NCBI GenBank assembly: GCA_937901055.1
Contig: CALCGO010000136.1
Span: 1 to 40,308 of the forward strand
Length of the DNA stretch: 40,308 nucleotides
Source of the DNA: an uncultured Rhodobacterales bacterium
GTDB taxonomy: Bacteria; Pseudomonadota; Alphaproteobacteria; Rhodobacterales; Rhodobacteraceae
Reading direction: 5' to 3'
Below the pieces are notes generated by a model. The model did no database searches and was not told the origin of the DNA. It saw only the letters and a list, made by a program, of their open reading frames with translations. Position 1 is the first letter of the stretch. Every line of letters begins with the position of its first letter. This document shows, piece after piece, positions 1 to 28,261 of this stretch. A program made the position numbers and the translations under genes.

Positions 1-548
1 CTATCGGGAATATCCTGATCTGGCACCAGTGGTACATTTGCCGCCCTAATTCCTTGATAAGCCAAATATATGCACGTCGGTGTCTTGGATGTACGGCTAA
101 CTCCAACGAGAATGACATCGGCTTGTCGCAGATATTCAGCACTTAGACCATCGTCATGCGAGATAGCGTAATCAATCGCGGATACCCGTTCCAGATAATC
201 CTTATCAACTTTGTACTGTTTACCAGGCTGGCCAGTTGGTTGAAGTCCATCAAGATCTTCGAACGCCTTCATAACAGGACCAAGTAAGGAGATTGCCTTG
301 AAGCCCAGTTTCTGACTTGCGGCCTCAATCAATTTGGTGATTTCCGCACTGACAATCGTATAAATAACTAAATCTACGCTTCCGAAGTCAGATACCAGTG
401 ATTTCGCACGCTCAATACTTCGGACAAACGGGTACATAGTGATTTCGACCGGCATCGCGACGAACTGGCTAGCGACCGCGTCTGCCGCTGCAGTAACAGT
501 TTCGCCAGTAGCGTCTGACATTAGTACTATTTGATAGGTTTTCGACAA
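1..548 (-). CDS. PPSR-type kinase/pyrophosphorylase (DUF299 family), truncated at window edge
   Basis: Reverse-strand reading frame open to position 1; translation (TTG)[43 protein letters not shown]...[38 protein letters not shown] has the SDxTGET and [18 protein letters not shown] motifs of DUF299. TTG at 546-548 has a CGGAG upstream. Not in the supplied ORF track because it runs off the window. Confidence 0.88.
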
Positions 549-877
549 TGCGATGCTCCGAAATCTGCTTGTGGATTATTTAGGGGGTAACTTATGGAGA
601 AGTCCATCTAGTCCACAGGAGAATTTTCTTATGAAAGTTTTACACACCATTTGATTTTCTATTCACATTTTTATACTTGGGGACAGAAGATTTTGCCGCT
701 TGTGGATAAAAACTGCGCTTTTCACAAAACAATTTACAAAATAACGCATATAGGCGCAGATGTCGCTATGGATAACCCTGTGCAAAACTATCTAAACGCG
801 GTAATCCACATTATTCAGACTATCTACTATCAACCACCACTTCTCTTAAATATTTATATTATAAGAGGGAGAACAAA
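549..877. other. oriC: Candidate chromosomal replication origin (oriC) with DnaA-box cluster
   Basis: AT-rich ~330-bp intergenic region between DUF299 and hemE. Perfect DnaA box TGTGGATAA at 701-709; one-mismatch boxes at 570-578 (TGTGGATTA), 638-646 (TTTTACACA), 659-667 (CTATTCACA), 767-775 (TATGGATAA), 802-810 (TAATCCACA), 811-819 (TTATTCAGA). Location next to hemE matches known alphaproteobacterial origins (Caulobacter, Rickettsia). Confidence 0.8.
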
Positions 878-1915
878 ATGACCGGATCGCCAAAGAAAAC
901 TTTGCTTCGCGCACTAGCTGGGGAAACGCTAAATACGCCTCCTGTTTGGATGATGCGTCAAGCTGGACGATATTTGCCAGAATATCGCGAGTTACGCGCC
1001 ACAGCAGGTGGGTTTTTAGACCTATGCTATAACCCGGAATTTGCTACAGAAGTTACAATGCAACCAATCCGTCGATATGGGTTTGATGGCGCGATCCTGT
1101 TTGCCGATATTTTGTTGCTACCCCAGGCATTGGGAATGGATCTTTGGTTTGAAACAGGTGAAGGACCACGGCTTAATCCGGTAACTTGTGCGGCTGATTT
1201 GGGTAAACTAAAGGGCAAAGATGACATTCATGATGTTCTAGGACCGGTTTATGAGACCGTTAAGCGTCTTTCAGGGGAACTTCCCAAGGAAACTACGTTG
1301 ATCGGCTTTGCTGGGGCTCCTTGGACGGTTGCGACCTATATGGTTGCTGGTCGAGGAACAGTTGATCAAGGGCCAGCGCGTGAATGGATGTACCGTGATC
1401 CGATCGGTTTCGGGCAGCTTATTGATCTTATCACAGAATCGACGATTGAATATCTAGCGAAGCAGGTCGAAGCGGGAGCGGAAGTTATCAAATTGTTTGA
1501 TAGCTGGGCCGGTGCGCTTGGCGGGTCTTGTTTTGAAGAATATGCATTGAAACCAGCGATTAGGATCGCGACAGAGCTGAAAGCCCGGTTCCCGGGACTG
1601 CCCGTAATCGGTTTTCCGCGCGGTGCGGGTGGTGGATATATCAAGTTCGCGGATGCTGGCGTTTTTGATGGTGTTGCGATTGATACGTCCGTACCAGCAG
1701 ATTGGGCACGAGATGTACTGCAAAATAAAGTTACCGTACAAGGCAACCTTGATCCAATGTTGCTAATCACTGGTGGGGAGTCTTTGGAACGCGAAACTAG
1801 GAGGCTGGTGGAAATTCTTGGTCAGGGACCATATATTTTTAACCTAGGACACGGAATTACACCACAAGGCGATCCCGCCAATGTTGAAAAAATGTTGAAA
1901 GTTATCAGAGGGTAA
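878..1915 (+). CDS. hemE: Uroporphyrinogen decarboxylase
   Basis: 345 aa; [38 protein letters not shown] motifs; SD-like GAGGGAG upstream. Confidence 0.97.
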
Positions 1916-1919
1916 CCGC

Positions 1920-2372
1920 GTGTCTGACTTTCTATTATCAGCTTATCCATGGATATTGTCCCTACACATTGTGTCGGTGATATCATGGATGGCCGGTATG
2001 TTTTATTTGCCGCGGCTGTTTGTATATCACGCAGAAACCGCACCCGTTGGCAGCGAGCAGTCCGAGATTTTCAAGGTTATGGAGCGTAAACTGCTGCGGG
2101 CGATCATCAATCCAGCGATGACAGCGACATGGGTATTTGGTCTGTGCCTTGTTTTCACTCCGGGTATTGTAGACTGGTCGTCAGTTTGGCCTTGGGTGAA
2201 AGCGGCTATGGTTATTAGTATGTCGGGATTTCACGGCTGGCTGTCAGCGCGACGTAAAGAATTTGAGCGGGACGAAAACACGCGAAGCGGGCGCACATAC
2301 CGTATATCGAACGAAATACCGACGGTATTGATGTTAATCATCGTATTTATGGTAATTCCAAAGCCATTTTGA
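1920..2372 (+). CDS. hemJ: HemJ-family protoporphyrinogen oxidase (UPF0093 membrane protein)
   Basis: 150 aa, GTG start; WILSLHIVSVISWMAGMFYLPRLFVYH, RKLLRAIINPAMTATW motifs; adjacent to hemE. Confidence 0.9.
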   Translation: MSDFLLSAYPWILSLHIVSVISWMAGMFYLPRLFVYHAETAPVGSEQSEIFKVMERKLLRAIINPAMTATWVFGLCLVFTPGIVDWSSVWPWVKAAMVISMSGFHGWLSARRKEFERDENTRSGRTYRISNEIPTVLMLIIVFMVIPKPF

Positions 2373-5150: not shown

Positions 5151-7022
5151 GTGTTTCACGTGAAACATATGTTCGATGTAATCGTTATAGGCGGTGGTCA
5201 CGCAGGGTCAGAGGCGGCGCAGGCGGCGGCCCGAATGGGTGTGAAAACAGTCCTTATCACGTTGGCGTTCGATAAAATCGGTGAAATGTCCTGTAATCCC
5301 GCCATCGGCGGGCTTGGAAAAGGACATCTTGTTAGGGAAATCGATGCGCTTGATGGTGTGATGGGTCGAGTGGCGGATCAAGCTGGTATCCAATTTAGGC
5401 TGCTAAACCGCCGGAAGGGACCCGCAGTACAGGGTCCACGAGCACAAGCTGATCGTCGGATATACAAAACAGCGATGCAAGCCGAGTTCAAAAACCGACC
5501 AAACTTGGAAGTTTTACAAGCAGAAGTAGCGGACTTGATCGTTTCGCATGGACGCGTAGAGGGCGTGGTTCTGGTTGACGGCAGTGTAATAACCGCCGGC
5601 GCGGTAATCCTGACAGCAGGTACGTTCCTTCGCGGAGTAATCCATATAGGCGGTGAAACGCATACCGGTGGTCGGATGGGGGACAAGTCGTCGATAGCTT
5701 TGGCTGAGAGAATTGATGCGTTGGGCTTGCCTTTGGGGCGCCTGAAGACGGGGACACCACCTAGATTGGATGGGCGAACCATCAACTGGGATGGGCTGGA
5801 GATGCAAAAAGGCGATGACTCTCCCACGATGTTTTCGTTCATGTCAGACGAGCCGACAGCGCGGCAGGTTTCCTGTGGGATTACACACACTAATAGCCAA
5901 ACACATGATATTATTCGGAAAAATCTAGATAAATCAGCAATGTATAGCGGGAAGATCGAAGGGGTTGGACCTAGGTATTGCCCTTCGATAGAAGACAAAA
6001 TTGTTCGATTCGCCGATAAAGATAATCACCAAGTTTTTCTGGAACCGGAGGGCTTGAATAACCCGACTATATACCCGAATGGTATCTCGACCTCGTTACC
6101 ATTGGAGGTACAAGAAGCGTATGTCACTTCGATAAGAGGCCTGGAAAACGTTAAAATCTTGCAACCCGGCTATGCGATTGAATACGATTATATAGACCCG
6201 AGGGCGTTACGGTCGACATTGGAAGTTAAGACGGCCCCAGGGCTCTACTTCGCCGGTCAGGTAAACGGAACCACGGGATACGAGGAAGCGGCCGCACAGG
6301 GGCTTGTGGCTGGGTTGAATGCAGCGCTGGCTGTTAAGGACCGCGAGCCTTTGTTTTTTGACCGTGCTGATGGTTACATTGGGGTAATGATAGATGATTT
6401 GGTAACGCGCGGTGTTTCGGAGCCGTACCGGATGTTTACTTCCAGAGCAGAATATCGACTTTCTCTGCGCGCGGATAATGCAGATCAACGCCTAACGCCG
6501 ATTGGGGTGTCTATGGGATGTGTTTCAGACCAAAGAAAAAAGGTGTTTGACGAACGCATGGAGTCTTTGACAAAAGCCAAAACGAGTTGCGAGAACCTGT
6601 CAGTTTCGCCAAAGGAAGCAGGCGAATATGGCATCAAGGTAAACCAAGACGGAGTTCGGCGTACGGCTATTGATCTGCTGTCATATCAAGATGTGAGTAT
6701 ATCCAAACTATCGAATATTTGGGCTGAGCTATCAGACATGCCAGCAAAAATTGCACAACAAGTTGAGAACGACGCACGTTATGCGCATTATATTGAACGC
6801 CAAAAGAGAGATGTTGAAGCGATGCGACGGGACGAGGCGTTGAAAATTCCGGCGGATTTCAACTATGAAAATATAGTCGGGCTGTCGAATGAGCTACGAA
6901 GCAAATTATCGAGCATACAGCCATCAACGTTGGGGCAAGCTGGAAGGATTGATGGGATGACGCCCGCGGGGCTTACGCTAATACTAGCTAGTATACGCAA
7001 ACCGAAGAAGCGCTCGGCATGA
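5151..7022 (+). CDS. mnmG: tRNA uridine-5-carboxymethylaminomethyl modification enzyme MnmG (GidA)
   Basis: 623 aa; [48 protein letters not shown]. Start could be GTG 5151 or ATG 5169. Confidence 0.97.
5152..5167. other. parS: parS centromere site (perfect palindrome)
   Basis: TGTTTCACGTGAAACA, exact match to the widely conserved chromosomal ParB-binding palindrome; parAB 2.5 kb downstream. Confidence 0.93.
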
Positions 7023-7654
7023 GTGCTGTAGCGACCTCCCAAGCAAGCTTTGCTGGAATGTTTGATGTTTCACGTGAAACAATGGATCGGCTGCAAGCGT
7101 ATGCGGCTTTGTTGGTAAAGTGGAACCCGAAGATAAATTTAGTAGCGAAGTCGACAATACCAGATGTTTGGCACCGGCACATGGCAGATTCCGCACAACT
7201 TTGGTCGCTGGCGCCGCAAGGGGTGAAGACATGGATGGATATCGGATCGGGTGCCGGATTTCCAGGGCTAGTGATCGGCGCTATCGCAGCAGAAAAGGCG
7301 CCGGATTTGGCGGTTACACTTGTCGAAAGCGACAGAAGAAAAGCCATATTTCTTCAATCAGCCGCAAGAGAGATGGGAATCACAGTAAAAGTAGTAGCGA
7401 AGCGAATTGAACATCTGGAGCCACAGAATGCAGATATACTATCTGCACGGGCACTTTCTTCACTTCCACAACTTCTTGAATTTGCAACAAAACACAGAAA
7501 GCCAGACGGTGTCTGCTTGTTTCCCAAGGGCGCAAGGGTCGATTCGGAATTGACCGAAGCCTCATCATGTTGGCATATGGCATACGAGACATTTCCTAGT
7601 ATGACTGATCCCGACGCAGTTATACTCCGTATTGGAGAATTCAAGCGTGTCTAA
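7019..7654 (+). CDS. rsmG: 16S rRNA (guanine(527)-N7)-methyltransferase RsmG (GidB)
   Basis: 211 aa; [59 protein letters not shown]; overlaps mnmG stop. Confidence 0.96.
7066..7081. other. parS: parS centromere site (perfect palindrome)
   Basis: TGTTTCACGTGAAACA, second exact copy, inside the rsmG coding region (encodes ..DVSRET..). Confidence 0.93.
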
Positions 7655-8465
7655 AAGCACTATAACACCTAGTAAGAACCCAACAGTAATTGCCGTGGCC
7701 AATCAAAAAGGTGGGGTTGGAAAAACTACGACGGCAATAAATTTGGGTACTGCATTGGCGGCTGTTGGTCGGAAAGTTCTGCTCATCGACCTGGATTCTC
7801 AAGGAAATGCTTCGACTGGGTTGGGAATTTCGCTAGATATGCGCAAAATGACGACCTATGATTTGCTTGTCGGAGACACTACGCTTTCAGCAGTCATGCA
7901 GGAAACGATGATCCCGAATTTTTTCATTGCGCCTTCCACCAATGACTTAAGTTCGGCGGACGTGGATATGGTGAATGATCCAAATCGCGTGCTGCGGATG
8001 AGAAAAGCGCTGACATCTGATGATGCCCTAGCCTGCAAGTTCGATTACATATTGATTGATTGCCCACCCTCGCTGAATTTACTAACCGTAAATGCGATGG
8101 TTGCGGCGGACTCGGTTCTCGTTCCATTGCAGTGCGAATTTTTTGCGCTTGAAGGTCTGTCGCAACTGATGCTGACCATCCGCGAAGTCAAGCAATCTCT
8201 GAACCCCAAATTGAGTATCCAAGGTATCGTGCTTACTATGTATGATCGCCGGAATAACCTGTCGAAACAGGTTGAGGATGATGTGCGCGAAAACCTCGGA
8301 AATTTGGTTTACGACACCATTATTCCTCGTAATATCCGTCTTAGTGAGGCTCCCTCACATTCGGTACCGGCGTTGATTTACGATCACAGAAGTTCCGGCA
8401 GCATTGCATACCAGAAACTAGCTGCCGAGTTACTTCGGCGTATGAATGACAACGTAACAGATTGA
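7647..8465 (+). CDS. parA: Chromosome partitioning ATPase ParA
   Basis: IAVANQKGGVGKTTTAINLG Walker motif, LLIDLDSQGNASTGLG, IDCPPSLNLLTVNA. GTG 7647 preceded by GGAG; the track ORF starts at an in-frame TTG at 7632. Confidence 0.95.
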   Translation: MSKSTITPSKNPTVIAVANQKGGVGKTTTAINLGTALAAVGRKVLLIDLDSQGNASTGLGISLDMRKMTTYDLLVGDTTLSAVMQETMIPNFFIAPSTNDLSSADVDMVNDPNRVLRMRKALTSDDALACKFDYILIDCPPSLNLLTVNAMVAADSVLVPLQCEFFALEGLSQLMLTIREVKQSLNPKLSIQGIVLTMYDRRNNLSKQVEDDVRENLGNLVYDTIIPRNIRLSEAPSHSVPALIYDHRSSGSIAYQKLAAELLRRMNDNVTD

Positions 8466-8477
8466 AAATGTTGAAAA

Positions 8478-9368
8478 ATGGCAAAGAGAACTGAACGTAA
8501 AAGCTTAGGTCGCGGTCTTTCCGCATTATTGGCAGATGTGAATCTTGACGAGGGTGATGCCAGTCAAGCGATGACAGCCACTCGATCAAGCGACACAGAT
8601 ATGCCGATTGAAAAGGTTTTCGCGAATCCGGATCAGCCACGTCGAACATTTGCCGAAAAGGATCTAGAAGACCTGACAGCGTCGATCACCGAAAAAGGTG
8701 TTATTCAGCCGTTAATCGTCAGGCCCGATCCGAATAACCAAGGCGGTTATCAAATCGTTGCCGGCGAACGCCGTTGGCGCGCGGCGCAGCGGGCGAAATT
8801 GCACAAAATTCCTGTTCTGATCCGCAATTTGACCGATACAGAAGTGCTGGAACTCGCCATTATCGAAAATATCCAACGGGCAGATCTGAACGCTGTGGAG
8901 GAGGCGATGGGGTATCGCCAACTAATGGATAGGTTCGGACACACACAAGAGAAAATGGCGGAAGCCTTGGGCAAAAGCCGCAGCCATATCGCGAACCTTC
9001 TTCGGCTCTTAAGTTTGCCACCAAAAGTGCAAGAATATCTTCAAAATGGCCAGATTTCCGCAGGTCATGCGAGAGCACTGGTACCAGCGAGTGACCCGGT
9101 GGCGCTCGCACGCGAGATTATTTCGAAAGGGTTGTCTGTCCGACAGGCTGAGGCACTGGCGAAAGCAAAAAAGCCGGGCGAAAAGCAAAAACGGCAACTG
9201 AAACCAACTAAGGATGCAGACACACGGGCGATCGAAAATGACCTATCCACGCATCTTGGCGCGAAGGTAAGTATTGACCACAAAACTGGTGGTCAAAGCG
9301 GAGAGTTGCGGATCAAATACACGGATTTGGAACAGCTTGATGGACTATGTCGGCTTCTGTCACATTAA
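8478..9368 (+). CDS. parB: Chromosome partitioning protein ParB
   Basis: 296 aa; RKSLGRGLSALLAD, NPDQPRRTF, GERRWRAAQRAKL, AIIENIQRADLNAVEEA. Confidence 0.96.
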   Translation: MAKRTERKSLGRGLSALLADVNLDEGDASQAMTATRSSDTDMPIEKVFANPDQPRRTFAEKDLEDLTASITEKGVIQPLIVRPDPNNQGGYQIVAGERRWRAAQRAKLHKIPVLIRNLTDTEVLELAIIENIQRADLNAVEEAMGYRQLMDRFGHTQEKMAEALGKSRSHIANLLRLLSLPPKVQEYLQNGQISAGHARALVPASDPVALAREIISKGLSVRQAEALAKAKKPGEKQKRQLKPTKDADTRAIENDLSTHLGAKVSIDHKTGGQSGELRIKYTDLEQLDGLCRLLSH

Positions 9369-27349: not shown

Positions 27350-28261
27350 ATGGCAAGACGTAAAAAAGGCCGCGCGATAAGTGGATGGCTGATTGTGGAT
27401 AAACCGCTCGGCGTAACGTCGAGTGCTGTTGTGAACAAAGCTAAATGGGCGTTCGACGCGCAAAAAGCCGGGCACGCTGGAACGCTTGACCCTGAAGCAA
27501 CGGGTGTGTTGGCGATTGCTTTTGGCGAAGCGACAAAGACGGTGCCATATGTGACAGATTCCATGAAAGCTTACCGGTTTACCGTGCGTTTGGGCCAAGC
27601 TACGAACACGGATGACGGTGAGGGCGAGGTGATTAGCGAAAGCGACAAGCGTCCGAAGGCCGATGAAATTCGTGCAGCGTTGTCAGATTTCACCGGCGAC
27701 ATAATGCAAGTTCCCCCACAGTACTCTGCCGTGAAAGTAGACGGTGAACGCGCATATAAACGTGCACGTGACGGTGAGGAGATGGAACTGGCCGCGCGTC
27801 CGCTGCTAGTGGAATCGCTCGAGCTTATCGAAATTCCAGATGCGGATCACGCGGTACTTGAGATGACCTGCGGCAAGGGCGGTTATGTGCGATCTATCGC
27901 GCGAGATTTGGGCCAGGCGCTGGGCTGTTTCGGCCATGTTGTGCAGTTGCGCCGTGTTTGGGCGGGGCCGTTTGAAGTGTCCGACGGTATCTCGTTTGAG
28001 GTGCTGGATAAGATGGCAAAGGATCGCAAGCTCGATGATTTTTTGCTCCCGCTTGAAGCCGGCCTTCATGATTTGCATGAACTGGCCTGCACGCCGGAAG
28101 GAGCCGCAAAATTACGCAATGGCAACCCCGGCATGGTGATAGCGTCTGATGTGGAATACGGAGAGGAATGCTGGACCTCGTTAAACGGCGTTCCGGTTGC
28201 AATCGGGGTTTACAAAAGCGGCGAATTGCATCCAAATCGGGTTTTCGTACTAGGGGAATAA
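27350..28261 (+). CDS. truB: tRNA pseudouridine(55) synthase
   Basis: Start [62 protein letters not shown]. Confidence 0.96.

Follow-up and report, generated by a model that had tools for sequence, protein, structure and literature searches.

The closest described systems are alphaproteobacterial origins of replication. The Caulobacter origin lies between hemE and a COG1806 (DUF299) gene, and the same two genes flank the Rickettsia one (PMC1914354). A first-pass annotation had placed established origins of this class beside hemE. The stretch of DNA analysed here (the window, a 40,308-nucleotide contig from an uncultured marine Rhodobacterales bacterium) opens with this Cori-type arrangement, hemE standing on one side of an intergenic gap and a COG1806/DUF299 gene on the other (Table 1). 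The gap runs from the start of the DUF299 gene (548, minus strand) to the hemE ATG (878), comprises exactly positions 549-877 (329 bp), and has a GC content of 36.5%, against about 44-57% in 1-kb windows. We consider it highly probable (about 95%), judging from sequence, that this gap is the oriC of the genome, as the first-pass annotation had proposed, because its enrichment in DnaA boxes, the selective conservation of those boxes, the hemE/COG1806 flanks, the nearby parS sites, and the position of the corresponding gap in a complete chromosome all favour this reading. The DUF299 gene itself is split by a contig break: a second contig, C118, ends in the remainder of the gene and extends the window leftward, and the two contigs appear to join through a 9-base overlap. 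From their translations, we take the ORFs of C118 to be maf, aroE, coaE, dnaQ, and secB.

Table 1. Features of the candidate origin and its surroundings (window coordinates)
Feature	Position	Strand	Basis or remark
DUF299 / Kinase-PPPase (PF03618, COG1806), N-terminal part	3..548	-	Pfam/NCBIfam; C-terminal part on contig C118
Candidate oriC, intergenic gap	549..877		36.5% GC
DnaA box TAATCCACA	570..578	-	Motif search; in conserved column set
DnaA box TTTTACACA	638..646	+	Motif search; in conserved column set
DnaA box CTATTCACA	659..667	+	Motif search; TTATTCACA in some relatives
Exact DnaA box TTATCCACA	701..709	-	Identity 0.99, 9 close homologues
DnaA box TTATCCATA	767..775	-	Identity 1.00, 9 close homologues
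DnaA box TTTTGCACA	779..787	-	Identity 0.98
DnaA box TAATCCACA	802..810	+	Abuts box 811; identity 0.99
DnaA box TTATTCAGA	811..819	+	Adjoins conserved tail
CTA repeats (CTA-T-CTA-CTA)	820..829	+	DnaA-trio-like; fails published strict rule
AT-rich stretch, candidate unwinding element	838..867		Conserved inverted repeat CTCTTAAATA...TATTATAAGAG
hemE, uroporphyrinogen decarboxylase	878..1915	+	Pfam; TIGR01464 above cut-off
hemJ	1920..2372	+	Pfam/NCBIfam
Perfect parS TGTTTCACGTGAAACA	5152..5167		At mnmG start (peptide MFHVKH)
Perfect parS TGTTTCACGTGAAACA	7066..7081		Within rsmG (VSRET)
parA	7632..8465	+	Pfam
parB	8478..9368	+	Pfam

A box was counted wherever the sequence departed from TTATNCACA at no more than one position, the strict form being TTATCCACA. 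By this definition the gap holds eight boxes, one of them exact, distributed over both strands as initially described; these make up 8 of the 31 matches in the whole window, where the runner-up 330-bp stretch has 2. The earlier count of one exact and at least six single-mismatch boxes stands for the degenerate TTATNCACA but not for the strict TTATCCACA, to which one box is exact (701), three have a single mismatch (570, 767, and 802), and the others have two. Elsewhere in the window, 27394-27438 holds another exact TTATCCACA and a near match 36 bp off.

The same box positions recur in relatives that keep the DUF299-hemE layout (L031-L041 and L048, from a hemE scan that yielded 19 loci, the nearest being from uncultured Rhodobacterales and Rhodobacteraceae genomes). 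Across nine sequences, the window and the eight relatives nearest to it, identity is 0.948 in the box columns versus 0.784 in the other columns of 549-819, and none of 5000 random placements of eight 9-mers equalled the box-column value; the boxes thus pass the alignment across relatives that had been suggested, in which a lack of box conservation was to count against an origin. While the AT-rich composition of the gap does raise the rate at which boxes arise by chance, dinucleotide shuffles of the gap itself carried a mean of only 0.5 boxes and none of 2000 reached eight. Taken with the box-column conservation, this refutes a chance cluster, the probability of which we regard as practically nil. 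The 76-residue ORF at 651-881 was rightly called spurious, because it has no Pfam match and stops break its frame in several relatives, and we discount it as a gene.

The tail of the gap (820-877) is also strongly conserved (identity 0.954 in the same nine sequences). Its CTA repeats start directly 3' of the abutting boxes at 802-819 and resemble DnaA-trios (basal unwinding system), for which the published rule calls for at least three contiguous trios no more than 16 bp from a box with up to two mismatches (PMC8287927). Among 13 homologues we found no conserved instance of this strict rule, just the CTA-T-CTA-CTA beside box 811. Farther along, a 27-bp stretch near 838-867 is 85% AT and adjoins the boxes as a candidate unwinding element; the inverted repeat it carries, CTCTTAAATA...TATTATAAGAG, sits just upstream of the hemE ribosome-binding site. 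Both arms of this repeat co-vary in relatives (e.g., L039 and L036). As a single-strand fold, the palindrome is weak (z -1.3). The tail may be an unwinding site, a hemE leader, or both.

This last point bears on a different reading, that the boxes belong to a divergent promoter through which DnaA controls DUF299 and hemE, and that the origin lies elsewhere, for example at dnaA. The gap does lie between divergently oriented genes, and conservation within it is highest just upstream of hemE, where the sequence could be a leader or promoter. Eight boxes would be many for a promoter, however, and in most Rhodobacteraceae sampled the cluster persists upstream of hemJ in spite of the loss of hemE and DUF299 there, so we hold this explanation to be very unlikely. 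DUF299 was present in just 9 of 199 sampled genomes of the family, and yet 23 of 30 hemJ loci, counted from a listing of survey loci L181-L210, had at least three boxes inside a 330-bp span immediately preceding hemJ (or hemE, at loci that have it), usually without hemE or DUF299. Because the clusters keep this place mostly without those two genes, it is the hemJ-rho-parAB side that the origin keeps to, with hemE as a flank in some lineages only. An origin "beside hemE" is therefore a description that suits this genome, Caulobacter, and Rickettsia but not most of the Rhodobacteraceae sampled, in which the stable anchor is hemJ-rho-mnmEG-rsmG-parAB.

Past the gap, the gene order includes rho, mnmE, mnmG, rsmG, and parAB, with rsmG, parA, and parB named by Pfam, in agreement with the first-pass annotation. 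Perfect parS sites number only two in the whole assembly, and both are here, 4.3-6.2 kb from the gap and beside parAB, giving the locus a parABS partition region near the candidate origin. Both sites fall in coding sequence. DnaA-titrating (datA-like) and DnaA-reactivating (DARS-like) sites also carry clustered DnaA boxes, and the cluster itself, though nothing further, would suit such a site in place of an origin. We judge this to be extremely unlikely given the parAB and parS context, the hemE/COG1806 flanks published for origins, and the location of the corresponding gap opposite the terminus in a complete chromosome (below). Nor is there a comparable second cluster in the 1.43 Mb read of a 2.35-Mb contig from a relative (G001), where the hemE gap is the top box cluster with six boxes and the next has three.

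With 635 contigs, the source assembly is too fragmented for whole-genome GC skew, and chromosomal position was approached through other genomes. The cumulative GC skew of G001 is low over a broad region, 110-300 kb, and reaches its minimum at 180 kb, which is about 118 kb away from hemE. In two further relatives (G002 and G003) and in our own contigs, skew taken over 5 kb changes sign at the gap, being negative before it and positive after; on a longer range, G002 and G003 have their minima to the left of hemE, at a distance of 15-17 kb. A further position came from G107, a complete 4.37-Mb chromosome of the same family in which DUF299 is also beside hemE. There, among the matches listed, the octamer GGGCAGGG, which we take to be a terminus-pointing (KOPS-like) motif, switches strand at 598-605 kb (~602 kb), marking the terminus, and the GC skew also drops at about 598-605 kb. 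Taking the origin as the point opposite, at ~2.79 Mb on the assumption of equal replichores, the DUF299-hemE gap at 2.738 Mb is within ~1% of the chromosome from that point and dnaA, at 2.233 Mb, is ~13% away, about ten times farther. The skew check proposed at the outset thus gave a mixed return: oligomer polarity in G107 fits the hemE gap, and the broad GC-skew minimum of G001, a closer relative, speaks neither for nor against it. It had also been allowed that a maximum at dnaA would count against the gap. In our genome dnaA is on a separate contig with merely scattered boxes, and the G107 geometry, under equal replichores, disfavours dnaA and favours the hemE gap; we accordingly rejected a dnaA-proximal origin.

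For the oriC reading, we infer DnaA binding, an unwinding site, and origin activity along the following lines. DnaA would bind the eight-box array on both strands, and a DnaA filament would grow from the abutting boxes at 802-819 into the CTA-repeat and AT-rich tail (820-867), where the duplex would open and the helicase would be loaded. ParB at the parS sites (5152 and 7066) would then segregate the copied origin.

Compared with Cori of Caulobacter crescentus (PMC1914354, PMC4285127), the gap is alike in its hemE-DUF299/COG1806 flanks, its several DnaA boxes of mixed quality, and its AT-richness. It differs from Cori in that its boxes resemble the E. coli type TTATCCACA more closely than they do the Caulobacter G-box TGATCCACA, and that 549-877 contains neither GANTC nor a CtrA site (TTAA-N7-TTAA with up to one mismatch). 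It also differs in lacking a convincing IHF site, the one match with one mismatch (at 630) being at chance level (0.38 expected). Because there is no such CtrA site, we do not file the gap as Cori type in regulation; this would fit the simpler CtrA circuit described for Rhodobacterales (PMC2877005). An unlikely extension is that the origin retains the ancestral hemE/DUF299 flanks, has lost the CtrA/GANTC control of Caulobacter, and has its AT-rich-tail palindrome before hemE, the most conserved part, bound by a regulator particular to Rhodobacterales, which would tie either initiation or the expression of hemE to the cell cycle. The predicted origin of Rickettsia prowazekii (PMC1914354) shares the hemE and COG1806 flanks, but the CtrA and IHF sites in published accounts of that type of origin were not convincingly found in the gap.

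This work assigns a very probable origin to the draft genome of an uncultured marine bacterium of the Rhodobacterales. The understanding of initiation is unchanged by the finding, and the observation that the origin across the family tracks hemJ-rho-mnmEG-rsmG-parAB, not hemE, is of use in predicting origins and in estimating growth rates from metagenomes. Unlike the locus described here, the corresponding place in most other Rhodobacteraceae sampled no longer has DUF299 and hemE, and Maf was the gene across the gap in all three hemJ loci examined. What our locus has in common with the other, computationally identified Rhodobacteraceae origins (PMC6699656) is a DnaA-box cluster upstream of hemJ-rho-mnmEG-rsmG-parAB, and with its known hemE/COG1806 setting it is an ordinary rather than a surprising origin candidate, and a well supported one.
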